Assembly (NCBI GenBank): GCA_016838895.1
Contig: JAEKNU010000009.1
Location: forward strand, 46,949 to 110,948
DNA length: 64,000 nt
From: Chloroflexota bacterium
GTDB taxonomy: Bacteria > Chloroflexota > Anaerolineae > Anaerolineales > Anaerolineaceae
Reading direction: 5' to 3'
Shown here one piece after another: positions 16,041-42,371 of the stretch (position 1 is the first letter of the stretch; each line of letters begins with the position of its first letter). Made by a program: the position numbers and the translations under genes. The notes beneath the pieces were generated by a model. That model worked only from the letters and a program-made list of their open reading frames with translations, made no database searches and had not been told where the DNA came from.

Positions 16041-18763
16041 GACTGTACCTCCTGAAGGTCAACGCCTAATGTGTTGAGCAGCAAAAGTTGGGCGCGCTGA
16101 AGCGTCCCGCTATTTACATAGGCGCTGCCAACACCCAAAATCTGATTGGGCGATTCGGTTGTGCTGGAAAGATAAAGGGAATCAAGATCAACATAGATTA
16201 CCCCTTCCACATTCTGGATAACAGTGATCACCTCGGCGGCGGTGACGTCTTGTCCGAAGCGGCGCATTTGAAATGAGAAAGCATCTTCGAGTGCATCCTG
16301 CACGTCGTCAAAGACGGCCTCTGTGACATAACGGTTATCTACAGCCAGGTTGGCCGTCAGATTGAAAAGCAGTAGATCAAAGGTATCGACTTTGACTTGT
16401 TGGACAGGGTCACGGACCTTATCCATAGCGCCTTTGAAGGTCTTGATGAATTTTTCATCGGTAACGGGTTTGCCATCGGCTCCGGCGATGGTGATATGCA
16501 CCAGGTGCTGCTCGCCATTCCATAAATCAATGGCCTGCGCCTTGCCGATCCCGGCGTAAGCGCGGGAGAAATCCTCGTAATCATACAGCGAGACAATGCG
16601 GTCGAGGGTGCGTACAGTCAATGGTGCGTTGTCGCGAGCGTCATCCATCTTTTCGGGATCTCCGGCACCTTTGGCAGCCAGTGGATTGATTACACCGCGC
16701 ACACCTAACGGCTTGGAAGGCAGTAATGTCAGGATTCCAGCATCCACTTGACCATCAAGTCCAATACCGCTACGGTAAACTGCGCTGACATTATTCTGCC
16801 CAGTGGGCAGGCGTGCGCCGACTTCCCCGTCTCCGAAAATGACGGTCGCCTTTGCAGTTTTTCCTGATCCTGCCGTAGGATCATCGTCAATGCGGATCAC
16901 GTACTCTTGATCATTGGCATCCAGATCGTACAGTGATGTGGATTCATTCCAAAGCAATCCGTTTACGCGCAGTTTGAGTGTGCTGGCTGAGCCAGTTGGC
17001 GTTGTAGCAGGGATATAGGTTAGTGGGGGTTTTTTGAGCGTAAAGCGCTGGTTCGTCTTTGCGCCGTCCCCACTACCCAGAATTTCGTTGACGGTCTCGC
17101 CATGTATGGCGCTGACCGTGTTGGCGTTGAGTGTGAGTTTGCTGCGCAGGTAGGTATACTTGCGACCCGATTCGAAGGTCAGGACAGTGAAACCGCCAAT
17201 ATGGTTTATGGTTTTAATTGTCAAGACTTCACTAGCTAAAACGCCCGACATATCGCTGCGCTCCCCACGCAGGGTCACGGACTGCCCGACATGAAAACCG
17301 AGTACCAGGTCGTTGAGTTCGAGTTTGGCAGGGTCGCTACCCAGATCTTCCCCAAAGGGTAATTCGGCCAGTGTCAGTTTCTCACTCTGTAAGTGAACGG
17401 TGGTGGTACGGATGTCAAATTTGGATGGCTTGTCGGTATCGTTGTCGTTCAACGATGCTCCTGCCGGAGTTTTAAGCGTCAGGCCGCTGGCTTTGCCACT
17501 CATGGCAAAGGCGGCCAACGCGTACTCGATCTGAGAAGCGATCTTATAGATGCGTGGAGTCGTGCCGACAGCATCGAGACAGATCCACGAATCGGGCAGC
17601 AATCCATCAACGACGCGTTCCAAGTAAAGGTCGGCACTCTGGTAGTAATTACCATTCATCTGGTATTTCCAGATTGGCCAGGCTGAATCCCAGTTTTGTC
17701 CGGGGTATGCAGCACTATTTATGTTAGGAAGGCTCCCGTAGAGAGGTGCATTATTTCCAAAGACAGGCAGTTTCATGCGCAGTGCATGCACACTACCCGT
17801 AGCGCTCGCATTGGTCTTGCGCTCATTTTCAAGGTAGGTGAGCAATTCCTTCTTGTCCCATTTATTGAAAGACAGGAATGCGTTCATGTCATCATCCGTC
17901 CACTGTTTGCACAGGATGTTCGTGGTGATGGCGCTTCCGTCGAGAGGTATCTGAGTGGTAATATCCACCTGGCCCTGGGGCAGGGACGCGGACACATAAC
18001 CAGGCAGCGAGGGAGATGCATCAAAGTCTACTTGAGTGCGCTTCTGATCCGGTTGAGCCTTGATCGCCATGATGCGCAACATAGCCTGGTTGCTGCCGCT
18101 GTCGACTAGCAGGCGATCTCCGGCCCTGAGATTGGCATCTACGCCTTTCAGGTAAATACGCTGTGCGCTGGTTGTCACGGTCTGCGGAAAGGTGAACCGT
18201 GGCTGGATGGCATTCCATTCTTTGTAGGCCGTTAAAGCTGTGGAAGTTTCAAAGGATTGCGGTAACTTGCCTTGTGGCGGGATGCTCTGCACGCGTGTGT
18301 TTATGGGGATATCGGCCATTCCAGGCGCACCCTCCGCATCCTCGACAGTGAATGCCAGGTAGGCGGTGGCGGCTACGCCAGGACTGAGTTCGTAACCGAT
18401 CGAGCGCGCCATCTCAAGAATTGAGCGCCGCTCGTCTGCCGTCCTCAGGAAGCCCTCATTCGCAATCCGTTCCTGGTAGAAGGTCAGCACATCCGCTACG
18501 ATCGCGCTTGCATCAAGCAGGGCAATCGATGGGTCGTCGGATTCGCGCGTGGTCAGGACGGTCAGCGGACGCGCCCCGGCGAAGTCGCCGTCCTGCAGGG
18601 TAAAGTTCCCTAACTGCGCCAGCATGTGTCGGAAAAATGTCGAATAGGAACCTGCGCGATAAGAAAGAGATGGCAGGCCCGGGCGGTTGTAAATTGGCGA
18701 CGGTGCCGGATCGGGTTCACAGCACTGGCAGTTGTTAAGTGCAGGGTCGATTGGATTGCTCAT
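16037..18763 (-). CDS. eCIS baseplate wedge protein 2 (baseplate J-like, Pvc12-type)
   Basis: A 908-aa protein of the putative baseplate assembly family (T4 gp6/gp7 and Afp12/Pvc12 analogues). Recognisable blocks are FFRHMLAQLGNF near residue 45, DDPSIALLDASAIVADVLTF, and further on VIFGDGEVGARLPTGQNNVS with VNPLAAKGAGDPEKMDDARD (gp6-like core), then TVRTLDRIVSLYDYEDFSRA. Seven such positions match the pattern of the preceding paralogue, so the two wedge proteins are ancient duplicates. ATGA overlaps link it to both neighbours. It forms part of the ring around the hub that triggers sheath contraction. Confidence 0.9.
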   Translation of the reverse strand: MSNPIDPALNNCQCCEPDPAPSPIYNRPGLPSLSYRAGSYSTFFRHMLAQLGNFTLQDGDFAGARPLTVLTTRESDDPSIALLDASAIVADVLTFYQERIANEGFLRTADERRSILEMARSIGYELSPGVAATAYLAFTVEDAEGAPGMADIPINTRVQSIPPQGKLPQSFETSTALTAYKEWNAIQPRFTFPQTVTTSAQRIYLKGVDANLRAGDRLLVDSGSNQAMLRIMAIKAQPDQKRTQVDFDASPSLPGYVSASLPQGQVDITTQIPLDGSAITTNILCKQWTDDDMNAFLSFNKWDKKELLTYLENERKTNASATGSVHALRMKLPVFGNNAPLYGSLPNINSAAYPGQNWDSAWPIWKYQMNGNYYQSADLYLERVVDGLLPDSWICLDAVGTTPRIYKIASQIEYALAAFAMSGKASGLTLKTPAGASLNDNDTDKPSKFDIRTTTVHLQSEKLTLAELPFGEDLGSDPAKLELNDLVLGFHVGQSVTLRGERSDMSGVLASEVLTIKTINHIGGFTVLTFESGRKYTYLRSKLTLNANTVSAIHGETVNEILGSGDGAKTNQRFTLKKPPLTYIPATTPTGSASTLKLRVNGLLWNESTSLYDLDANDQEYVIRIDDDPTAGSGKTAKATVIFGDGEVGARLPTGQNNVSAVYRSGIGLDGQVDAGILTLLPSKPLGVRGVINPLAAKGAGDPEKMDDARDNAPLTVRTLDRIVSLYDYEDFSRAYAGIGKAQAIDLWNGEQHLVHITIAGADGKPVTDEKFIKTFKGAMDKVRDPVQQVKVDTFDLLLFNLTANLAVDNRYVTEAVFDDVQDALEDAFSFQMRRFGQDVTAAEVITVIQNVEGVIYVDLDSLYLSSTTESPNQILGVGSAYVNSGTLQRAQLLLLNTLGVDLQEVQS

Positions 18764-24672: not shown

Positions 24673-25890
24673 TTAAACTTCCTCCGGAAGGTAGTGTCTG
24701 CGGCCTCGATAGATGTAGTAATCGCCATAGCTATCGTGCCAGACTTCAATCACCTCACCCGGTGAATTCCAGTAGTGGTTATATCCCGTCAAGCGGTGAT
24801 ACTCGAGTGGGCGCTTTTCAGGATCGGGTACCACGATGTAAATGCCGGTACCGAAGCCTCTAGTATCAACAGCCACGCGCGGAATGGCGCGATTGCGTTT
24901 AGGATTGGGTTGTTCAGGGATGAGCTGAATATTTATGAATAAAATGGCTGCGTTTTTCCCGCGAGACAGCTGCCATCTTGTAAAATATTGGAGAGCTGTT
25001 TGCCAGGTTGGCCCACAACCGAAATCCACGATTTCGGAGGCGCCAGAAACTACACCTTCAAAGGTTCCTCTGGGCATTGCAATCGGCAACTTCGCCCAAC
25101 TGGCTGGTACCGGTCCAGACTCCAGAACAATGGTGAAGCGAACCAGATCTTTTGCCAGTTGCGTGATACGGCGTTGTCGGTTTGCCATCGATTCCATTAC
25201 GGGTACCTGTTCTAGCTTGAGATAATTTCCTTGCGGAGTAATGCGTTCCAAATCCCATTCCAATCCGCCCGAAAGAGCCTGGGTGATTCGGGCTGCTGCG
25301 ACGCGCATTTGGCTGGCAATCCGCAATCGAAGCTGGCGTGCAGATTGGCTTTCCGCATCTTTCGGCGATAAAGATAGTTGAAGAGCACTGCTTCCAGCGA
25401 CCTTGATAGACTGATTACCACGCAAGAACGCAGTAGATGCTCGTTCGGCATCTTGTTCAAGGAAATGTTCTGTGGATTGGGATGCCACTGGTTTACATCC
25501 AGGCTCTTGCTGGATGGTATGAGTCAACTCGTGGGCAAGCAACCGACGTCCCTCGAGTGTGTGTGGATGAAAACGATTTTGCCCAAAAGCGATATGCTGC
25601 CCAACAGTAAAGGCGCTTGCATTCACTGATTCAGCCGACGCAGCGGCCTTCGTATCTGTATGCACACGCACTTTGCTGAAATCGTGCCCGAAGCGTGGTT
25701 CGAGGGATGATCGTGTGTCTGAATCCAACGGCTGACCGGGGGATTGCAGCACTTCATGAACGAGCGCTGGCAGTGATGCAAAATGATTTTCCTGTGTCGA
25801 TTGTTGACTTGAAGGTTTACGTTGTAACAAGAAATCGAATGAAGATGGGATTGGTGTTGTCTTTATCCTGGATGCAAATCTCTGTTTCAT
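24673..25890 (-). CDS. DUF4157-containing putative eCIS cargo 5
   Basis: A 405-aa protein if ATG 25890 is used; it lies one base after the previous stop, and the 54-residue N-terminal extension in the same frame overlaps that gene. DUF4157 spans about residues 45-128 (SLEPRFGHDFSKVRVHTD, then LLAHELTHTIQQ with H120/H124). The residues 175-405 match no family I know. They contain VDFGCGPTWQTALQYFTRW and a Tyr/His-rich end (WHDSYGDYYIYRGRRHY). There is no second HExxH. It is placed between the other cargo genes and the tube adaptor, so eCIS delivery is inferred from DUF4157, a known marker of eCIS-associated effectors. Confidence 0.75.
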   Translation of the reverse strand: MKQRFASRIKTTPIPSSFDFLLQRKPSSQQSTQENHFASLPALVHEVLQSPGQPLDSDTRSSLEPRFGHDFSKVRVHTDTKAAASAESVNASAFTVGQHIAFGQNRFHPHTLEGRRLLAHELTHTIQQEPGCKPVASQSTEHFLEQDAERASTAFLRGNQSIKVAGSSALQLSLSPKDAESQSARQLRLRIASQMRVAAARITQALSGGLEWDLERITPQGNYLKLEQVPVMESMANRQRRITQLAKDLVRFTIVLESGPVPASWAKLPIAMPRGTFEGVVSGASEIVDFGCGPTWQTALQYFTRWQLSRGKNAAILFINIQLIPEQPNPKRNRAIPRVAVDTRGFGTGIYIVVPDPEKRPLEYHRLTGYNHYWNSPGEVIEVWHDSYGDYYIYRGRRHYLPEEV

Positions 25891-25891
25891 T

Positions 25892-28048
25892 TCAGGGTAC
25901 CCCCCAGGCTTTCGTCTTGTAGTCGTAGGCCAGTAGCGCGTAAGAGCGCGCACGACTTCTTGATACACCTGGCATATGCTCAGCCAACCCTGAATACATC
26001 TCGATAATGCGTTCATTGGGCGTGCGTAAATCAAAGAATTGCGGACAAACATCTATGGTGCCGGCTGGAGTCGCTGTTGCAGGCGCGCTGGTAGGGGTAG
26101 GTGTGACAGATGGGCTTGCAGTTGGCGTTGGAGTACTGTTGGCGGGAAACGCCGTCCCGGTAGACGATGAGGGGCTACTACCCGATGTGGTTGGTTGCGG
26201 TAACGGACCTCCACCGGAGGGTGAAGCAGGCCGTGTCAGTGTCCAATTTACTCGACGTGTCGCTAAACAAGGTGGCACACAGCGGATGGCGTAAAACTCT
26301 TTGAACCATTTATACATGGCGCGGTAACGATCATAGATACCGGCGATCGCGGCCCGATCAGCACGCCCAAAATGGGCAATGATGTTCGGTGCCATGAAAG
26401 CCGTATTGGCAGCATCGCCATAGGTCTGTGCTGTTCCAAATAATGCGTAACTATTCCAGCGTTGTGCCCAGGCTAACGCCTCGCGAATCAAGTCTTCATG
26501 CCGTTGGGTAGGACAACTTGATACCTGATCTGAATGTTCAGGACCGAGCGCTTGGGCACGGTTGTTCATCTCCATAATAAAATTGGTGATAGACTGCGCA
26601 TTGGCCAGCGCCTGTTGAGTAGAAATTAAGAGGATGACACGTTCACGCTGGTAGGCACGGTCTTGCGTGGGCATACCGCAGGCATGGGATGACTCGTGAA
26701 TCAGGATCTCTTCCTGTATAACATTATATTCAGGGTCGCTAAAGTAGGTCGGACATATGGTAACGTTCTGTTGACTGTGGCTGGCACTGGCCGGAGATCC
26801 TGTATAGCAGGTGGGTTCGTTCATTGTACCGCACTGGAAGGAGGCCGTGCCGGAAGGGGCCAGCGCTTCGAGGAAGACGCGGATAGCATCTACGCGCGCG
26901 CGGACGTCATTTGCTGTCTGTACAGAATGATTGTTGTCAAAATAGCGGTCGAGTGCGGTGGCTACAGCTGGCTCACTGGTCTGGTTCTGAATATAACGAT
27001 CCAGGCGGGCGATAGCACCATTTGGCCCAACGATGAAGCGGTGTGCTGTGGAGCGTATCGTCTCGAGAGCCGCTGCGCGTGTGGCTGAACAAGCCGCAGG
27101 CTGGCTCGTGCAGCGCCGTGTTGATGTGCCCCTGCCGCGCTGCATCTCAATTACTCGCCAAAAACGGTAGCCGTATTTGCCGGCGCTGCAGCCCAATCTG
27201 TGCTGACGATTGACCGTACGAGGCGGCTGAAAGCCTTCACGAATGAGTACATTTTGCACGGCGTTAAGACGGCGTTCGATCAATGGAGTGTTTACCGAGG
27301 TGCCGCCCTCCTCCGATGCGTAACCATACAGGCTGATCTCTTGATCGTTGGCTGCCACTGCCTGACGGGCTTTGTTCTCAACTTTGTCTTCTTCGGCCGA
27401 GTCAAGTGCGCTTTCGGGCGGGTTATCGGCAGGCGTCGGCCTGGCCAGATCGAAATAGACGAAATTGGTTTCACGAGGTTCGCCACGATTTTCATACAAA
27501 CCGGTTACGCTGAACTCAGAAGTCTGGCGTCGGATTACCGGCATCCTGCCTCCCTGCTGGAGGGTATGCGCCAGTTCGTGGGCAAGTAATCTTTTTCCTC
27601 GCGATGTGTCAGGCGCATATTGACCAGCGCCGAAGACAATGTTTTGGCCAGCAGTGTAAGCCAGTGCATGGATATCCTCAGCTGATTCGGCGGCAAGACG
27701 ATCGGTGTATACCCGCACCTGGCTAAAGTCGTGGCCGAAGCGTGGTTCCATGAACGCCTGCGTACCTCTGTCGAGAGTCTGCCCGTGAGATTGCAGGGCA
27801 GCCTGCACGCTCTTTGGCATTCCCACGAGAGACCCTGGGTCGGCCGGTAGGCGCGTCAGGATCTCACCGAATGAACTTCCCCTCAGGGCGTTTGCCGCTA
27901 TCTGGTCGGCTTCCTGCTCCCAGCGATCTCCCGGCTGGCTGACAGTAAGGTACGCGGATTCACGCGTCAAGGGACACAGCACAGCCTTCCCGGCCTGGTT
28001 GGTCGGGGTACTCGTCCTCATCCGATGAGAGAGAGTTTTTGAACTCAT
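25892..28048 (-). CDS. DUF4157 + OmpA-like + second zincin motif: putative eCIS cargo 4
   Basis: A 718-aa modular protein. Residues ~35-60 carry PGDRWEQEADQIA, the usual DUF4157 leader; DUF4157 occupies ~80-165 with HELAH at 157-161. Residues ~190-305 look like an OmpA-type domain (VYFDLARPTPADNP, then EISLYGYASEEGGTSVNTPL and IERRLNAVQNVL). A second metallopeptidase motif, EEILIHESSHACGMP (451-455), follows an ICPTYF box reminiscent of M35-like lysine-specific peptidases. Residues ~625-690 are a Pro/Thr/Ser linker. The ATG overlaps the previous stop (ATGA). Likely a toxin aimed at envelopes or proteins; activity is inferred only from motifs. Confidence 0.78.
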   Translation of the reverse strand: MSSKTLSHRMRTSTPTNQAGKAVLCPLTRESAYLTVSQPGDRWEQEADQIAANALRGSSFGEILTRLPADPGSLVGMPKSVQAALQSHGQTLDRGTQAFMEPRFGHDFSQVRVYTDRLAAESAEDIHALAYTAGQNIVFGAGQYAPDTSRGKRLLAHELAHTLQQGGRMPVIRRQTSEFSVTGLYENRGEPRETNFVYFDLARPTPADNPPESALDSAEEDKVENKARQAVAANDQEISLYGYASEEGGTSVNTPLIERRLNAVQNVLIREGFQPPRTVNRQHRLGCSAGKYGYRFWRVIEMQRGRGTSTRRCTSQPAACSATRAAALETIRSTAHRFIVGPNGAIARLDRYIQNQTSEPAVATALDRYFDNNHSVQTANDVRARVDAIRVFLEALAPSGTASFQCGTMNEPTCYTGSPASASHSQQNVTICPTYFSDPEYNVIQEEILIHESSHACGMPTQDRAYQRERVILLISTQQALANAQSITNFIMEMNNRAQALGPEHSDQVSSCPTQRHEDLIREALAWAQRWNSYALFGTAQTYGDAANTAFMAPNIIAHFGRADRAAIAGIYDRYRAMYKWFKEFYAIRCVPPCLATRRVNWTLTRPASPSGGGPLPQPTTSGSSPSSSTGTAFPANSTPTPTASPSVTPTPTSAPATATPAGTIDVCPQFFDLRTPNERIIEMYSGLAEHMPGVSRSRARSYALLAYDYKTKAWGVP

Positions 28049-29403
28049 GGCTGTCCTTGGGTTTGTACTTGCTTCTGCGTTTTCGGGCAGATGTTGTCCA
28101 GAATGCCGATTGCCCAGTAGGCAAAATCGATGTCCTGACTATGGGCTTTGATCTCGCTATTTGCCCAGTCCTTTGGATCGTTGCGTTGCCGATATAGCGC
28201 ATATGAGCCGATACCGAAGCGGGCTTCAAGATCCCGATCTTGAACGTAATGAGTGAACTCGTGGACAAAAACCGACTTCTCGAGAATTTTTCCGCAAGGG
28301 CCCGGGATCGGGGCAATGTGAATCTCCCCTGACTGTGTTGTCCACCCCGCTAGCCGTGGCTTGCGACCTCGACGTAAATTTGAATCGATAATGCATTTAT
28401 TGATATCATTCGCATTTTTGTTGACAGGATTGTCCCGACAGGTTTTGTAATCCCTGATATTTCGGGTGGATGATTTAATAAATTTCCGAAGTTCATCTTG
28501 GCAGCCACAGAATCGCGTACTCATGTCAAGTACGGTACCCTGGCGAAATTGACTTCTTATTTGTTGGGCAGCGCTTGTAACTCCCCCAGCTTCCAACTCC
28601 TCTGCAATGTACATAGCAGTTAACGGGCCAACCTGACCATCCTGAGGTATGCCATGAGCGGCTTGCCAGCGTAGAACCATATCTATAAAATGATTGTCAA
28701 TGGTTGTGACAGTATGATCCATCCCGATTACATCGCGGATGATCTTAATCACATTGGGCTTTGTCAACATCTTACGATTTTTCATGAGCGCAACCTGTCG
28801 TATGGGGGCGGACAGGGTCCTAGGTACAGCACCATAATTTACGGGAGTAATACGCCAGTCTCCTTGCAGCGTGTTCGCGAGGAGACCGGGAAAGGCCTGT
28901 TGTTGGACAACGTGCGTTAACTCGTGGGCGAGTAACCTTTTTCCACGGGATGTATCCGGCGAATATTGACCAGCGCCGAAGACAATGTTTCGGCCAACAG
29001 TGTAAGCCAGTGCCTGTATATGCGCAGCAGATTTAGCGGCGCGCTGGTCGGTATGCACCCGAACATGGCAAAAATTATGCCCAAAGCGGTTTTCCATGAA
29101 ATTTTGTGTGCCGCTCTCCAGCGGTTGCCCCGGTGATGTGAGTGTATCGTGTACACTTACCGGGACGTCACTCAGCCTGGGTGAATGATCGCCGATCCGC
29201 ACCAGCGGTTGAGTTGTTGTGATACTGGAAATGGGATCGGGTATTCGTCCGGTAAGGGTGGATTCAGCCAGCCGATCGGCTTCCTGCTCCCAACGGTCTC
29301 CCGGACGGTTTACGCGCAATTTTGCCTGCAGCAAACCGGATTTCATGGTTGCTGTTCTGATCGATTGATGCAGGTGACTTTTGCCTTGAGTCTTTTCTCT
29401 CAT
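28045..29403 (-). CDS. DUF4157 + peptidoglycan-binding-like + second zincin motif: putative eCIS cargo 3
   Basis: A 452-aa protein. Leader NRPGDRWEQEADRLAES is at 32-48; DUF4157 is at ~85-168 (RFGHNFCHVRVHTD, HELTH at 160-164). Residues ~225-270 resemble a PG_binding_1 helical repeat (FIDMVLRWQAAHGIPQDGQV followed by GPLTAMYIAEEL). The C-terminal part has six or more Cys and a second motif, EKSVFVHEFTHYVQDRD (381-385), ending with HSQDIDFAYWAIGILDNICP. This looks like a two-zincin effector with a possible cell-wall targeting module. It has the same layout as cargo 4 without the OmpA part. Confidence 0.77.
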   Translation of the reverse strand: MREKTQGKSHLHQSIRTATMKSGLLQAKLRVNRPGDRWEQEADRLAESTLTGRIPDPISSITTTQPLVRIGDHSPRLSDVPVSVHDTLTSPGQPLESGTQNFMENRFGHNFCHVRVHTDQRAAKSAAHIQALAYTVGRNIVFGAGQYSPDTSRGKRLLAHELTHVVQQQAFPGLLANTLQGDWRITPVNYGAVPRTLSAPIRQVALMKNRKMLTKPNVIKIIRDVIGMDHTVTTIDNHFIDMVLRWQAAHGIPQDGQVGPLTAMYIAEELEAGGVTSAAQQIRSQFRQGTVLDMSTRFCGCQDELRKFIKSSTRNIRDYKTCRDNPVNKNANDINKCIIDSNLRRGRKPRLAGWTTQSGEIHIAPIPGPCGKILEKSVFVHEFTHYVQDRDLEARFGIGSYALYRQRNDPKDWANSEIKAHSQDIDFAYWAIGILDNICPKTQKQVQTQGQP

Positions 29404-29459
29404 CTCGTTAGTTTATGCTCCCAAGATATTTAAAATAATTTTTCGCTGACAATTCATCC

Positions 29460-30410
29460 TTAAGGATTCGGACTTGTTCTGCTACTTCCAGAAGGCGAGC
29501 CTCCAGTGGTTTTCGCGCTATGACATTTACGTTTGGTGAGCACCAAATGACGGGAGGGTCCGATACATTTGTAGTCATACCAACACAACGGTCGGTCGGG
29601 TGGCGGGTACATGGTCACGATCGGAGCAACACTGACAATGATCGCATCCTTGCGTACGATGACGCGGATCGGGGTACCGTCGCTGAAATAGTTCGTGCAG
29701 GCGTACGCGCCGCTCTTGGGATCAAACAGGTCACATACAATTCGTTCGACAGATCCACGTTTCCCCTTTAACTCGCTGTCAACGTAATGCTCCGCCGCCC
29801 GTTTGGTCAAGCTTTGATGATCAACGAACCATCCTGCGCATGCATCATTGGTTACTGTTTTTCCACCAGCTCCCGCTGAACCAGGCGCTTGCACCGCTCG
29901 CTGGATTGATAGCCCGCCTGACATGTGCTTGGCAGATAATGGGCCGGCCTGCACAGGAACAGCAGCGACAGCCTCGGCTTGTCGTTCAAATGCACTACCT
30001 GGAGGGTCCATTCGTAACAGTGTACCTGGTTGATAAGATGCGCCACCCTGCTGCATGACGTGAGTTAATTCATGTGCCAAAAGTCTGCGCCCCTGCGGCG
30101 AGGATGGATTGTATTGACCAGTACCGAAAACCACATTTCGCCCTACAGTGTATGCAAGCGCATTCAGGGTCATTGCCGAGGTAGCTGCATTTTCATCGCT
30201 ATGGATGCGTACCTGGCTGAAATCATGGTTGAAGATTGCCTCCATAGAAGTACGTGTTGCACTATCAAGTGGTTTTCCAGATGAACGTAATACATTGTGA
30301 ATATCTAGTAGATTCCTATCCGGCTTGAACCTATGAGATGCCGTTTGTCGAGAGAGCAGGTTCCGGGTGGAATATGATAATTTTTCTTGATAGAATTTTG
30401 CCAAAATCAT
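29460..30410 (-). CDS. DUF4157-containing putative eCIS cargo 2
   Basis: A 316-aa protein, starting 12-13 nt after the preceding stop with GGAGA upstream. DUF4157 covers ~37-122 (MEAIFNHDFSQVRIHSD, HELTH at 113-117). A short linker leads to an unknown domain (~190-300) with conserved-looking Cys and Trp: CAGWFVDHQSLTKRAAEHYV, IVCDLFDPKSGAYACTNYF, CWYDYKCIGPS. No second HExxH occurs. The C-terminal domain is the probable effector part, mechanism unknown. Member of a run of five DUF4157 genes. Confidence 0.75.
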   Translation of the reverse strand: MILAKFYQEKLSYSTRNLLSRQTASHRFKPDRNLLDIHNVLRSSGKPLDSATRTSMEAIFNHDFSQVRIHSDENAATSAMTLNALAYTVGRNVVFGTGQYNPSSPQGRRLLAHELTHVMQQGGASYQPGTLLRMDPPGSAFERQAEAVAAVPVQAGPLSAKHMSGGLSIQRAVQAPGSAGAGGKTVTNDACAGWFVDHQSLTKRAAEHYVDSELKGKRGSVERIVCDLFDPKSGAYACTNYFSDGTPIRVIVRKDAIIVSVAPIVTMYPPPDRPLCWYDYKCIGPSRHLVLTKRKCHSAKTTGGSPSGSSRTSPNP

Positions 30411-30423
30411 TAAAGATTGTCTC

Positions 30424-32148
30424 CTAAAAACTGAAGCCTAAGCGGATGCCAATAGTGTAGTAAGGGTTCTTTTTGATGTTTTCAAAATTTAATTTGATCG
30501 GATTATTTTCCGGTAATGCATCAATGTATTTGTTTCTACCGGGGAATAGTTTTCCAATGCCGCCAACCACACCAATTTCAACCCTTGGACCTTGATAACC
30601 CAACGTTAACGTACCGCCTACCTCGGGCATCAGCTTCTTATTTCGTTCGCCAAGTCCTCTTGTAAACATCCCGGCACCGGCACGGACATCCCCACGAACG
30701 GCAAAACCGCCGGCCGAACGATTTGTTGAGTAATCCATGCCAAGCAAGGCTCCAAATAAGATGGCGTCTTGCTGTTCTTCCGTCAGGACACTGATAACAT
30801 TTGTGTATCCGCCAAGTAATATCCGTAGTTTGCGTAGTTTATCCAATGGGAAACCGGCGGCAAGATCAAAACCCAATCCAAAACCACCACCGCCGCCAAA
30901 TCCAGTACCAAAAATATTAAAACCTGAAACAACATCAACCACGAGTGGTATTGGCTGAGCGACCAAAGTAAATGTACATTTTGGGAAGCGTCGTTTGAGC
31001 CATGCCGGAATAAATGAAAAATGACGCGGGTGCATCATAGCACGCCGCCCAAAATTCGGATGGCTTGCCATGGGTGACCAGTCACTCTCATTGACCGAGC
31101 TTGCAGGACGAGGCGGATCACCTTTCTGGTGTTTATATTCATCTGGAAGACCGAGTACAATGTGTCCGCTCTCATGCCAGATTAGGCTATCAGAGACGCC
31201 ATCCAGCAATGCCAGAAACCAATTGGTGCTGCCTGCATAGATCCTGCCTGCGCTGGAGCGACCTGTGCCGGATTGAAGGTAAACGACACTTGCATGGGCA
31301 GTCCTGCCTTCTTTTGCAATCACTTTGATTGTGATCGTCTTCCCTTTGCATACGCTGCAGTCTGCATTATTAGCTACGGATATTTTCATCCAGCCGTTTA
31401 AGCGTTTGTTTGCAACCGAAAGAATACGTGTCTTCAATTTGTTAAATTTTTCCGTTGGCAATCTTTTTTTGGCATCATTGGGATGTTTAAAATGAATCTC
31501 CATTGTTGATGTTACTGTACAGGTGGAACTATCAAAGCTTAACAATATTGGTTTGGGATCTTCATACTTATCAGAATCGGTGCGCTGAACACGTTCGCTG
31601 ATGACGGTTCCCCTTTTTTGGCGCGTACCAGATACGTCTTTGCCTTTCTGTCCGGGCCAGGGTGTGAATTTTTTTCTGCGCATCAAGCCTGGCGTCTGCG
31701 GGGATATTGTGCTCACGGGAATTCCTCGCAGGACTTGATTAGCGACCCGATCGGCCTGCTGTTCAGCGTTGTGGTTCGAAGGTTGTACTTTTAATTGCGG
31801 TTGTAACCCGGGCATGACGCCGCTTTGCTGTACGACATGGGTGAGTTCATGCGCCAGCAACCGTTTCCCCTGAGATGTGTGCGGGGCATATTGCTCGGCA
31901 GCAAAGACCACATCATGGCCAACGGTATATGCCAACGCATTAACCGCTTCGGCTGATTCGGCGGCCTTGCCATCGGCATGAATCCGCACCTTGCTGAAGT
32001 CGTAACCGAATTGAGGTTCCATTGAGCTGCGTACTCCGGCGGCCAGCGGCTTGCCAGGGGAGCGCAGCACATTATAGACAACAGATTGTGCCTGTATTGC
32101 CCTTGTTGGTGCCGGAGTATTTTTTGCAGTTTGAATCATTTCTCTCAT
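30424..32148 (-). CDS. DUF4157 + zincin + beta-barrel-like tail: putative eCIS cargo 1
   Basis: A 574-aa protein. DUF4157 is at ~22-108 (SSMEPQFGYDFSKVRIHAD, HELTH at 100-104), followed by a degenerate leader-like NAEQQADRVANQVL. A second zincin motif, LIWHESGHIVLGLPDEY (H325, E326, H329, followed by GLPDEY), resembles metzincin-like sites with one extra residue before the Gly. After ~residue 395 the sequence becomes Gly/aromatic alternating (GGGGGFGLGFDLAAGFPLD ... YYTIGIRLGFSF) and ends in Phe, like a small outer-membrane beta-barrel. Start could also be ATG 32139. Target and activity are unknown. Confidence 0.77.
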   Translation of the reverse strand: MREMIQTAKNTPAPTRAIQAQSVVYNVLRSPGKPLAAGVRSSMEPQFGYDFSKVRIHADGKAAESAEAVNALAYTVGHDVVFAAEQYAPHTSQGKRLLAHELTHVVQQSGVMPGLQPQLKVQPSNHNAEQQADRVANQVLRGIPVSTISPQTPGLMRRKKFTPWPGQKGKDVSGTRQKRGTVISERVQRTDSDKYEDPKPILLSFDSSTCTVTSTMEIHFKHPNDAKKRLPTEKFNKLKTRILSVANKRLNGWMKISVANNADCSVCKGKTITIKVIAKEGRTAHASVVYLQSGTGRSSAGRIYAGSTNWFLALLDGVSDSLIWHESGHIVLGLPDEYKHQKGDPPRPASSVNESDWSPMASHPNFGRRAMMHPRHFSFIPAWLKRRFPKCTFTLVAQPIPLVVDVVSGFNIFGTGFGGGGGFGLGFDLAAGFPLDKLRKLRILLGGYTNVISVLTEEQQDAILFGALLGMDYSTNRSAGGFAVRGDVRAGAGMFTRGLGERNKKLMPEVGGTLTLGYQGPRVEIGVVGGIGKLFPGRNKYIDALPENNPIKLNFENIKKNPYYTIGIRLGFSF

Positions 32149-38910: not shown

Positions 38911-40452
38911 TTATACCTGGATCTGACCAGCAATTTGCTGGAGTTTGATAAAGACAAATTCGGCGGGTTTGAGTGGTGCAAATCCGACCAGGATGTTTAC
39001 CACACCGCGGTTAATGTCGTCCTGGGTAGTGGTTTCCTTGTCACACCTTACAAAGTAGGCTTCCCGCGGCGAGGCGCCCTGAAAAGCTCCCTGCCGGAAG
39101 AGCGTGTTCATGAACGCACCAACATTCAAGCGGATCTGGGCCCATAACGGTTCATCGTTCGGTTCGAAGACCACCCATTGTGTCCCGCGGAAGAGACTCT
39201 CTTCGATGTATAGTGCCATGCGTCGAACAGGAATGTACTTCCATTCGGATGCCAGGATGTCTTTCCCTTGTAAGGTACGCGAACCCCATACCACACGGCC
39301 CACGAAGGGGAAAAACTTTAGGCAATTGACGCCAAGTTGGTTAAGATCACCGATCTCTTTATCGATTAGCGAGATGGCCAGTTCGGGAACGCCATTTAGC
39401 GTTGCATCCATACCAGCAGGGGCCTTCCATATTCCCCGTTCAGCATCAGTTCTTGCAAAGACACCGGCAATGGCACCGCATGGAGCAAATTCTTCAAGCT
39501 GGTTATCGTGCAGCGGGTTCGACACTTGGATTCTGGGGAAGAAAATAGCCGCATTCTTGCTGCTGGTTGCCAAACCAGTACTGATGGCTGTTTTAACTGC
39601 CGCAGTATTAGACCAGTCGATTTTGGGCTTGGGATCAAGAATATAAAATGCACGTCGTTTTTCGCAATAGGTTGCTGCAGCTGTGATAACTGAATCGTTT
39701 ACGTACTCATTGGCGAGGTAAGGTGGGATGCATAACATATTGAATAGATCGGTTTTGGCCAGGGCGTAAAGACCGCGTTTATTGTCTTCCAGATTGCTTC
39801 CAGTGGCGATCTCTGTTGCAGTTAGCGCAGCACCATCCAGATTTGCTGCGACTATGGTTGTGGTTGCCTTTTTTGGACGTACATTGGGAACGATAAAAGC
39901 ACCCCCACTATTTTTTTTGCCGCGTACCAGGGAAGACGTCTCAAGAACGCGACCCACAAAGCGCGGATCGGTGGTTAAAATTGAAACATTGAGATGCTTT
40001 TCGATAGCACCAGAAATGGTGTCAGTTACAACCACATTGAACAAATCGGCAGCAGATGTTTTGGTAGTATGATCAACTGTTATGCTTAGTTTGGTACCCC
40101 ATGAGCCTGGATTGGCCGCCAAAAGGGTCAGTTTGTTGTTAGGTGATGCAGCGTCAGTAAGCAAATCATATTCTGCAGTAGTAGCGTTTCGATGCAGGCG
40201 AACAATCACTGCCTGGCCTCCGCCGTTCTGGAAGAAATCGCGAACAGCGTAACTCATTGCGCTCTCGAGCCACAGGCCGCCGAATACACGCTCATATTCG
40301 CCATAGCTGTTAATGGTGATCGGATCTTCAACCGGGCCTCTTAGGGCACGTCCGACGAATGCCGTGATGGATGTGGCCACTCCCGTAATCGTGCGTACAC
40401 CGCTTGGAATTTCCTCGATGTATACACCCGGATAGGTAGGTGAAACTGGCAT
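38911..40452 (-). CDS. eCIS contractile sheath protein
   Basis: A 513-aa protein beginning MPVSPTYPGVYIEEIPSGVR (the hallmark start of tail sheaths), with TGVATSITAFVGRALRGPVE and EYERVFGGLWLESAMSYAVR next. The C-terminal core includes NCLKFFPFVGRVVWGSRTLQ, EWKYIPVRRMALYIEESLFR and, at the end, the interlocking strand AEFVFIKLQQIAGQIQV. A perfect AGAGGAGG RBS precedes the ATG. There is a single sheath gene, against three in Pvc2-4. The sheath contracts to drive the tube through a target membrane. Confidence 0.95.
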   Translation of the reverse strand: MPVSPTYPGVYIEEIPSGVRTITGVATSITAFVGRALRGPVEDPITINSYGEYERVFGGLWLESAMSYAVRDFFQNGGGQAVIVRLHRNATTAEYDLLTDAASPNNKLTLLAANPGSWGTKLSITVDHTTKTSAADLFNVVVTDTISGAIEKHLNVSILTTDPRFVGRVLETSSLVRGKKNSGGAFIVPNVRPKKATTTIVAANLDGAALTATEIATGSNLEDNKRGLYALAKTDLFNMLCIPPYLANEYVNDSVITAAATYCEKRRAFYILDPKPKIDWSNTAAVKTAISTGLATSSKNAAIFFPRIQVSNPLHDNQLEEFAPCGAIAGVFARTDAERGIWKAPAGMDATLNGVPELAISLIDKEIGDLNQLGVNCLKFFPFVGRVVWGSRTLQGKDILASEWKYIPVRRMALYIEESLFRGTQWVVFEPNDEPLWAQIRLNVGAFMNTLFRQGAFQGASPREAYFVRCDKETTTQDDINRGVVNILVGFAPLKPAEFVFIKLQQIAGQIQV

Positions 40453-40496: not shown

Positions 40497-40715
40497 TCAC
40501 CCGGAATTCTCAAGATAAGTAACGATGAATGTTTGAATTTCTTTTAACTCCGTAAAATAGTGCCGATTGCCTTTTGGAATAGGCGTGATATGCCCACGCC
40601 AGATCACAGGTTGAGCATTGTCCCCTGTCTTTTCCTTCCACACGCGAACAATAAACGATTGCAAAGTAGCATCAGAGTAGTCAGCGCTCGCAGTCTCGGT
40701 CAGGCCGTTGGACAA
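40497..40715 (-). CDS. First gene of the eCIS operon: 72-aa protein, function unknown
   Basis: It uses a TTG start at 40715 with AGAGGAG 6 nt upstream. The sequence LQSFIVRVWKEKTGDNAQPV with IWRGHITPIPKGNRHYFTEL and a final EIQTFIVTYLENS is a compact alpha/beta pattern I associate with small proteins next to sheath genes in some eCIS loci; no biochemical role is known to me. It lies directly downstream of the candidate SARP-dependent promoter, 45 nt before the sheath. Confidence 0.65.
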   Translation of the reverse strand: MSNGLTETASADYSDATLQSFIVRVWKEKTGDNAQPVIWRGHITPIPKGNRHYFTELKEIQTFIVTYLENSG

Positions 40716-40769
40716 ACGTAACTCCTCTTAAAAAGAATCGTGTTTTTATACCTCCTTATTGTTACAAAT

Positions 40770-40811
40770 ATTGTCTTGAATAACGTCTCTTTAGCGTCTC
40801 TTTTGTGTCTC
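40770..40811 (-). promoter_or_regulatory. Candidate SARP-dependent promoter of the eCIS operon: three 11-bp-spaced repeats plus -10 box
   Basis: Read on the minus strand: GAGACA (40811-40806), GAGACG (40800-40795), GAGACG (40789-40784), each exactly 11 bp apart. Eight bases after the last repeat comes GACAAT (40775-40770), a plausible -10 box. SARP activators such as ActII-ORF4 bind short direct repeats at helical spacing with the last repeat 8 bp from the -10 box. An alternative -10, TATAAA, lies at 40750-40745. The expected leader is about 48-55 nt, ending with AGAGGAG and the TTG start. Confidence 0.7.
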
Positions 40812-40841: not shown

Positions 40842-40872
40842 AATGAAAAAGACTGCAATATTTGCAGTCTTT
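40842..40872 (-). terminator. Terminator of the SARP-type regulator gene
   Basis: Perfect 11-bp stem AAAGACTGCAA / TTGCAGTCTTT (40848-40858 with 40862-40872) with a 3-nt loop, followed on the minus strand by TTTTTCATTTTTC. It lies 21 nt after the regulator stop and just before the eCIS promoter, so regulator and eCIS operon are separate transcription units. Confidence 0.85.
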
Positions 40873-41868: not shown

Positions 41869-42371
41869 GCATTCTATCACTGGATAATGCTGTTGTCCAG
41901 ACGACAACGTTTTTTGTTCATTCAATATCGTGGGCAAGTGCAATGCTCCCATCCCATACGACAGTTTCCAGGCCCAGTACCGATGGGATGTGTGCAAAAA
42001 AGTTATCCGCCGAATACTGTAACATTGTGGAAGCGGCAATATTTATGGTGTAATGAATTCGAAAACACATGCGAGGTAGTTGGGTGGAGAAATTGTATCT
42101 TTGTAATGGTGATGCCTTCATCTTGTTTTGGTTCAACCACTTGCAAGGTTTTTAGCATTACGATTGATATTCAGTGCCAATTTGCATAAAGCAACATATA
42201 TGATGATGATCTCAACCAATCATAATCACAGGGCCTCTGAATTTTTTTTTAGCCACTTACCCTCCTATTCAGACATCATCTGAATGCGTTTGAGATGATT
42301 TTGAATATCAGATCCTATAGCAAAAATTTGATAAAAAGGAATGTTGTTTCAGATTCGTTAAGGGACTTCTA
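41869..42371. other. Long intergenic gap upstream of the SARP gene, no gene recognised
   Basis: A 500-bp A+T-rich stretch. A plus-strand frame (41488-42189) runs through it but also through the antisense of the SARP gene and shows no family-like sequence or RBS. The gap presumably holds the SARP promoter near its 41.8-41.9 kb end and the decayed boundary of the scrap region. Confidence 0.4.

Follow-up and report, generated by a model that had tools for sequence, protein, structure and literature searches.

The regulator gene, the repeats and the eCIS operon

The 64,000-nucleotide window analyzed here, from contig JAEKNU010000009.1 of a Chloroflexota bacterium, carries on its minus strand a gene for a Streptomyces antibiotic regulatory protein (SARP)-like regulator, a 177-bp gap and a run of genes for an extracellular contractile injection system (eCIS), the run being recognized as an eCIS cluster by its sheath, tube, baseplate, Pvc16, AAA ATPase, eCIS_core, gp25, Baseplate_J and DUF6519 genes. 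The features are listed in Table 1. Read along the minus strand, the gap holds a terminator-like hairpin, four direct repeats at spacings of 11, 11, and 12 bp, the hexamer AACAAT and a ribosome-binding-like AAGAGGAG, followed by a TTG-started gene for a 72-aa protein and then the sheath gene. The regulator is predicted to bind the repeats (40811-40772), to recruit RNA polymerase to AACAAT as the -10 element and to switch on the eCIS operon, a reading to which we assign a probability of about 0.8. What the sequence itself shows is the four repeats, the regulator gene with a terminator-like hairpin separating it from them, the return of the array next to related regulators, and a distance from repeat 3 to TANNNT or CATAAT that stays close to constant at 26 or 27 bp. 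Many relatives of the regulator gene have these repeats next to them, at a set distance from a promoter-like sequence, which makes it likely that the regulator binds them, and it would then switch the eCIS genes on.

Table 1. Positions of the regulator, operator, promoter and eCIS features in the window
Feature	Position	Strand	Basis or detail
Repeat 1, GAGACA	40806-40811	-	Sequence reading
Repeat 2, GAGACG	40795-40800	-	Sequence reading
Repeat 3, GAGACG	40784-40789	-	Sequence reading
Repeat 4, AAGACA, looser	40772-40777	-	12 bp after repeat 3
Predicted -10, AACAAT	40758-40763	-	26 bp from repeat 3 start, 8 bp after repeat 4
Terminator-like hairpin after regulator gene	40848-40872	-	Sequence scan; 11-bp stem, T-rich tail
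SARP-like regulator gene, 307 aa	40893-41816	-	BTAD residues 102-246; predicted N-terminal winged helix; predicted C-terminal helix 270-306
Candidate regulator-gene promoter, TGGACA-17-TAGAAT	41871-41899	-	Consensus match; 10 such matches in the scanned region, shuffle mean 9.5
72-aa protein gene, first after the gap	40497-40715	-	TTG start; ribosome-binding-like AAGAGGAG at 40729-40722; absent from the original open reading frame list
eCIS sheath gene	38911-40452	-	Pfam PF04984 and PF17482
Remaining eCIS run	9691-38981	-	Tube, baseplate, Pvc16, AAA ATPase, five eCIS_core, OB-fold baseplate V protein, gp25, two Baseplate_J, DUF6519, genes without a Pfam match

An earlier note on this DNA had described three 11-bp-stepped repeats, GAGACA, GAGACG, and GAGACG, with GACAAT 8 bp beyond the last, and these letters are present at 40811-40770 of the minus strand. 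The count of three has to be revised to four, the looser AAGACA being the fourth, and +12 from repeat 3 is the best offset for a further repeat-like unit both in the discovery set and in the second sample described below. GACAAT (40775-40770), proposed there as the -10 element, overlaps repeat 4, and AACAAT is the better candidate; its 8-bp distance from repeat 4 would equal that of the 3' repeat in SARP promoters, provided that the predicted -10 is the real one. The terminator that the regulator gene was said to end in corresponds to the hairpin in Table 1. Such hairpins occur in 11 of 27 tandem gaps, the window's counted (shuffles: mean 0.6, maximum 3), and the script overlooked hairpins visible by eye in loci L032 and L045. 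As to the gap being the only promoter space for the operon, the two largest inner gaps were scanned for consensus matches, and these two held no promoter-like site.

The description of the regulator as a winged-helix/BTAD protein is upheld by Pfam for BTAD (PF03704, E 5.4e-19, 69.4 bits against a cut-off of 22.1); the winged helix is seen in the predicted structure, with no winged-helix Pfam model matching at E≤0.001. We describe the protein as a predicted N-terminal OmpR-type winged helix fused to BTAD, the architecture of small-type SARPs; PF00486 is carried by 2 relatives among the 120 listed. The repeat spacings of 11, 11, and 12 bp correspond to the direct repeats, spaced by one or two turns of the helix, of SARP target promoters. 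The regulator scores 27.7 bits with the NCBIfam AfsR model (cut-off 1430) and 25 bits with the BagI/FevR model (cut-off 500) and, with scores below these curated cut-offs, falls outside both subfamilies.

Chance alone is an unlikely source of the repeats; the evidence within the window is modest, and the case is far stronger through conservation. Any 5-mer repeated three times at one constant spacing of 8–14 bp arises in 38 of 20,000 dinucleotide shuffles of the gap. Elsewhere in the window, 358 stretches of 177 bp were read on each strand, and 2 of these 716 readings contain a comparable triple, which amounts to one stretch. The 4.95-Mb genome has a single case of GAGAC repeated three times at 11 bp (none for the reversed control); with three mismatches allowed there are 6 matches in total (17 for the reversed control), and the other five places look like background. 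Within the window, RAGACG pairs at 11 bp are found at the eCIS promoter and in a single further case at 17054. As a separate observation, 8 of 11 sampled genomes of one genome family (f59, L127-L134) contain 11-bp-spaced triples of GAGACG/AAGACG in stretches that, as far as fetched, hold neither the regulator nor eCIS markers.

Conservation of the array, the -10 register and residue 68

Relatives of the regulator were collected from several genome sets, one of them contributing 35 loci, to give 45 distinct loci counting the window; L003, L068, L072, and L075 were left out of the conservation scan and of the motif-class tree as duplicates. Among the 29 gaps between the regulator and the 72-aa gene, 16 have a best RAGACG triple at the shuffle floor (p=0.005) and one more has p=0.010. 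In 27 of these gaps, analyzed without L003 (which duplicates L045) and L036 (which has N runs), repeat lags of 11 and 12 are more frequent than in shuffles; so are lags of 7, 14, and 21, which may stem from simple repeats in a small number of loci. Across the 45 loci end to end (404,901 bp, both strands), triples scoring at least 16/18 number 22, compared with 1 for the reversed motif; 19 are on the regulator strand, in a stretch that runs from 250 bp ahead of the end of the regulator match to 900 bp past it, and 3 lie just upstream of the regulator (L047, L048, and L065). The array accompanies the regulator gene even in loci with differing eCIS gene orders. The base following the six-letter motif, which lies outside the selection, is C in 36 of 51 units, bringing the repeat word closer to AGACGC. 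Genomes of the class to which the window belongs have regulators at least 95% identical to those of metagenome-assembled genomes labeled Anaerolineae (L049) and Anaerolinea (L037), which makes an Anaerolineae host likely. Array-bearing relatives also occur in genomes labeled by their depositors as Acidobacteria (L039), Pyrinomonadaceae (L043), and Gammaproteobacteria (L063).

When the 72-aa gene was used as bait, 5 of the 30 loci found (L085-L089) were regulator loci already in the set, 4 of them with a triple, whereas none of the 25 others (L090-L114) contains a triple of at least 16; the BTAD relative that the fetched stretch holds in 13 of these is of a more distant kind. A second sample, reduced to 38 distinct loci by dropping 14 of 52 as duplicates at 95%, gives 13 triples in 158,110 bp (control 0), 11 at the regulator and 2 lying 2.4 kb downstream. 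The conservation at related eCIS loci with the same regulator, whose absence the earlier note took as refuting its reading, is thus found in discovery loci and second sample alike. The two downstream cases (L185 and L190) are clear RAGACG triples far from regulators with His at residue 68, and TATCAT or TATGAT follows at +15, counted from where the third unit starts.

The promoter register was examined in the 17 of 29 distinct gaps with a triple of at least 15/18. Over these loci, resemblance to TATAAT peaks at offset 26, counted from where repeat 3 starts, with A at position 2 and T at position 6 in 10 of 17, and five close relatives have CATAAT at exactly this distance. Among the same 17 loci, no -35 candidate at 16–18 bp spacing exceeds 3/6 matches. 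In the second sample TANNNT stands at +26 (4 loci) or +27 (7 loci) from repeat 3 in 11 of 11, in an interval chosen with these stretches already in view (background 0.011 per offset). The transcript of the window's operon is predicted to start near 40751.

Residue 68 of the regulator aligns with Thr-88 of AfsR (residues counted by hand), which touches a base (PMC10936776). In the 21 discovery loci classed as AGACGC residue 68 is Gln throughout, but the pattern was first noticed there and is hence not a test. In the second sample, for which the Gln-68 prediction and the threshold were set before it was drawn, a triple is present in 10 of 18 Gln-68 loci versus 1 of 20 others (Fisher 0.00075). 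Pooling both samples gives 31 Gln-68 loci with and 17 without a triple, and 1 with and 31 without for other residues. L046, L059, and L064 (3 of 83 rows) were left out of this count, which takes repeats upstream of the regulator as present, so that its 21 discovery positives include L065 and not L040, unlike the 21 classed as AGACGC. Other residues accompany other 11-bp-spaced words, as judged by eye.

Proposed mechanism and competing explanations

In the proposed mechanism, regulator protomers would line up head to tail on the repeats, with repeats 3 and 4 replacing the -35 element like the two halves of the AfsR box and repeats 1 and 2 probably seating further protomers. Binding would recruit RNA polymerase to AACAAT, with activation as the outcome, and residue 68 of the recognition helix may help to set the word that is read, in which case lineages would keep private activator-promoter pairs. 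Numbering the first base of the -10 as -12 puts the beginnings of repeats 3 and 4 at -38 and -26, and AfsR contacts bases close by, at -38 and -27 (PMC10936776). The closest known system is the AfsR/afsS promoter of this Streptomyces SARP (PMC10936776), whose afs box has two repeats where the window has three to four. The word here is AGACGC at a spacing of 11 or 12, the target is the eCIS operon, a predicted C-terminal helix (270-306) takes the place of NOD/TPR, and the hosts are mostly labeled Chloroflexi/Chloroflexota or Anaerolineae rather than Streptomyces. By an alignment with residues counted by hand, the positions of the AfsR contact residues Trp-74, Pro-79, and Arg-87 are kept, whereas those of Thr-88, the base-reading residue, and Arg-94 are Gln. 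EmbR of Mycobacterium tuberculosis (2fez, 2ff4) has an extra FHA domain (PMC10936776) that Pfam does not find in the window regulator.

A BTAD gene beside eCIS loci is already known: BTAD is listed among the eCIS "shell" domains and BTAD genes appear among the adjacent regulators in the Fig. 7 legend of Geller et al. 2021 (PMC8213781), where the signals for eCIS production are called unknown. Neither a binding site nor a promoter geometry is given in the available part of that account, and full-text searches covering mainly open papers turned up no operator, binding or promoter geometry for eCIS BTAD regulators. The eCIS cluster of Streptomyces coelicolor is similar in having its own putative regulator, sco4263, and differs in that control is tied to bldA and development and that four promoters lie in two divergent regions (PMC10020575). 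The dedicated SARP-type activator and promoter outside Streptomyces that the earlier note suggested gain support at the sequence level from conservation beside the same regulator and from the fixed repeat-to-minus-10 register in the second sample. The SARP activation mode, known from antibiotic clusters, may thus head injection-machine operons too, and with eCIS production signals poorly known, the regulator, operator and predicted start make the question directly testable in one phylum.

The arrangement originally proposed, with three repeats only and GACAAT as a -10 element 8 bp from the third, is literally present in the letters, and GACAAT equals AACAAT in matching TATAAT at 4/6 positions; L003/L045, L185, and L190 also have the third repeat one unit closer to a -10-like hexamer. 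We nevertheless consider it very improbable, as the five closest homologues have CATAAT at +26 from repeat 3, not +14, a further repeat-like unit stands at +12 in most sets, and all 11 second-sample arrays at the regulator have TANNNT at +26 or +27. Direct repeats of 11 bp are a general feature of the OmpR-type winged-helix group, and the array could be the operator of another OmpR-type or two-component regulator with the BTAD neighbor a bystander. There is little room for this explanation, since the array tracks the regulator gene even where eCIS gene order differs, the 25 small-gene loci outside this regulator group are without it, and residue 68 and the repeat word covary.

Repression, or control chiefly of the regulator's own gene, would agree with the triples located 163–214 bp upstream of the regulator match in L047, L048, and L065. 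These triples (L047:780, L048:1315, and L065:7805) suggest self-control in that subgroup. As a general account it is hardly to be expected, given that the array is located ahead of the -10 where a -35 would stand, the position from which AfsR activates (PMC10936776), and that RAGACG pairs in the window are confined to the eCIS promoter apart from the one case noted above. A chance or low-complexity origin, to which the shuffles with some comparable triple and the background matches of the pattern in other genomes would lend something, is practically discounted by conservation, strand, position and register in two samples.

Several results weigh against activation through the repeats or against the link to residue 68. 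The 11-11 pattern by itself is unspecific at genome scale, occurring in 26 of 400 genomes (31 for the reversed control) and at the regulator in 3 of 33 places. Clustering of the motif class on the tree is not clear, with 75 of 500 shuffles scoring as low, and L038, regarded by us as having a different word, was scored positive there at the looser threshold of 15. AACAAT matches TATAAT at 4/6 positions only, the discovery set has TANNNT at 26 or 27 in 7 of 17 loci only (NANNNT in 14 of 17), and the 26-or-27 window was fixed after the second-sample stretches had been read, with +27 alone accounting for 7 of 11 and +26 alone for 4 of 11. At the threshold used, 17 of 48 Gln-68 loci have no triple; the downstream triples in two His-68 loci and a weak triple in one Asp-68 locus indicate that residue 68 does not encode the word completely. 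For Lys-68, the predicted second word appears in 2 of 11 versus 0 of 27 loci (p 0.078), which is suggestive only, and, the loci being related, there are only 2 supported independent pairs for the residue-word association, part of which kinship may carry.

With these points in mind, we hold only tentatively, at slightly under even odds, that private SARP-like activator-promoter pairs drive eCIS operons phylum-wide, with the 11/12-bp beat and the -10 register fixed and the word varying with one recognition-helix residue. The words would be AGACGC for Gln, GGAACGC/GATACGC for Lys, TGTGAYG-like for Thr, and GTGACGC for His (one locus). If true, such pairs would be a natural series of orthogonal switches, and a word shifting stepwise with one residue would give a natural recognition code for this fold.

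The 72-aa gene and the eCIS run

The 72-aa protein has 2890 homologues at E≤1e-5, with the family consensus HSFIVKIWLEE..WRGHITHVPSGERRYL..LD.I.AFI.PYL, and matches no Pfam family and no solved structure at E≤0.001. Its gene adjoins the regulator in 29 of the 45 distinct loci including the window (27 tandem, 2 divergent), and iterated tblastn detects one or more eCIS markers (structural, AAA or core) in 25 of these 29. With the gene as bait, a BTAD relative lies in the fetched stretch in 18 of 30 loci, some without eCIS markers; the protein may serve BTAD regulators as a partner or as a brake. Within the operon, the five eCIS_core (PF13699) proteins are encoded consecutively (24673-32148, minus strand), and one also has an Aspzincin_M35 metallo-endopeptidase domain. 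The eCIS run (about 10000-40000) has 47–56% G+C in 2-kb steps against about 36–46% in the flanks, and the run was perhaps taken up from another source.
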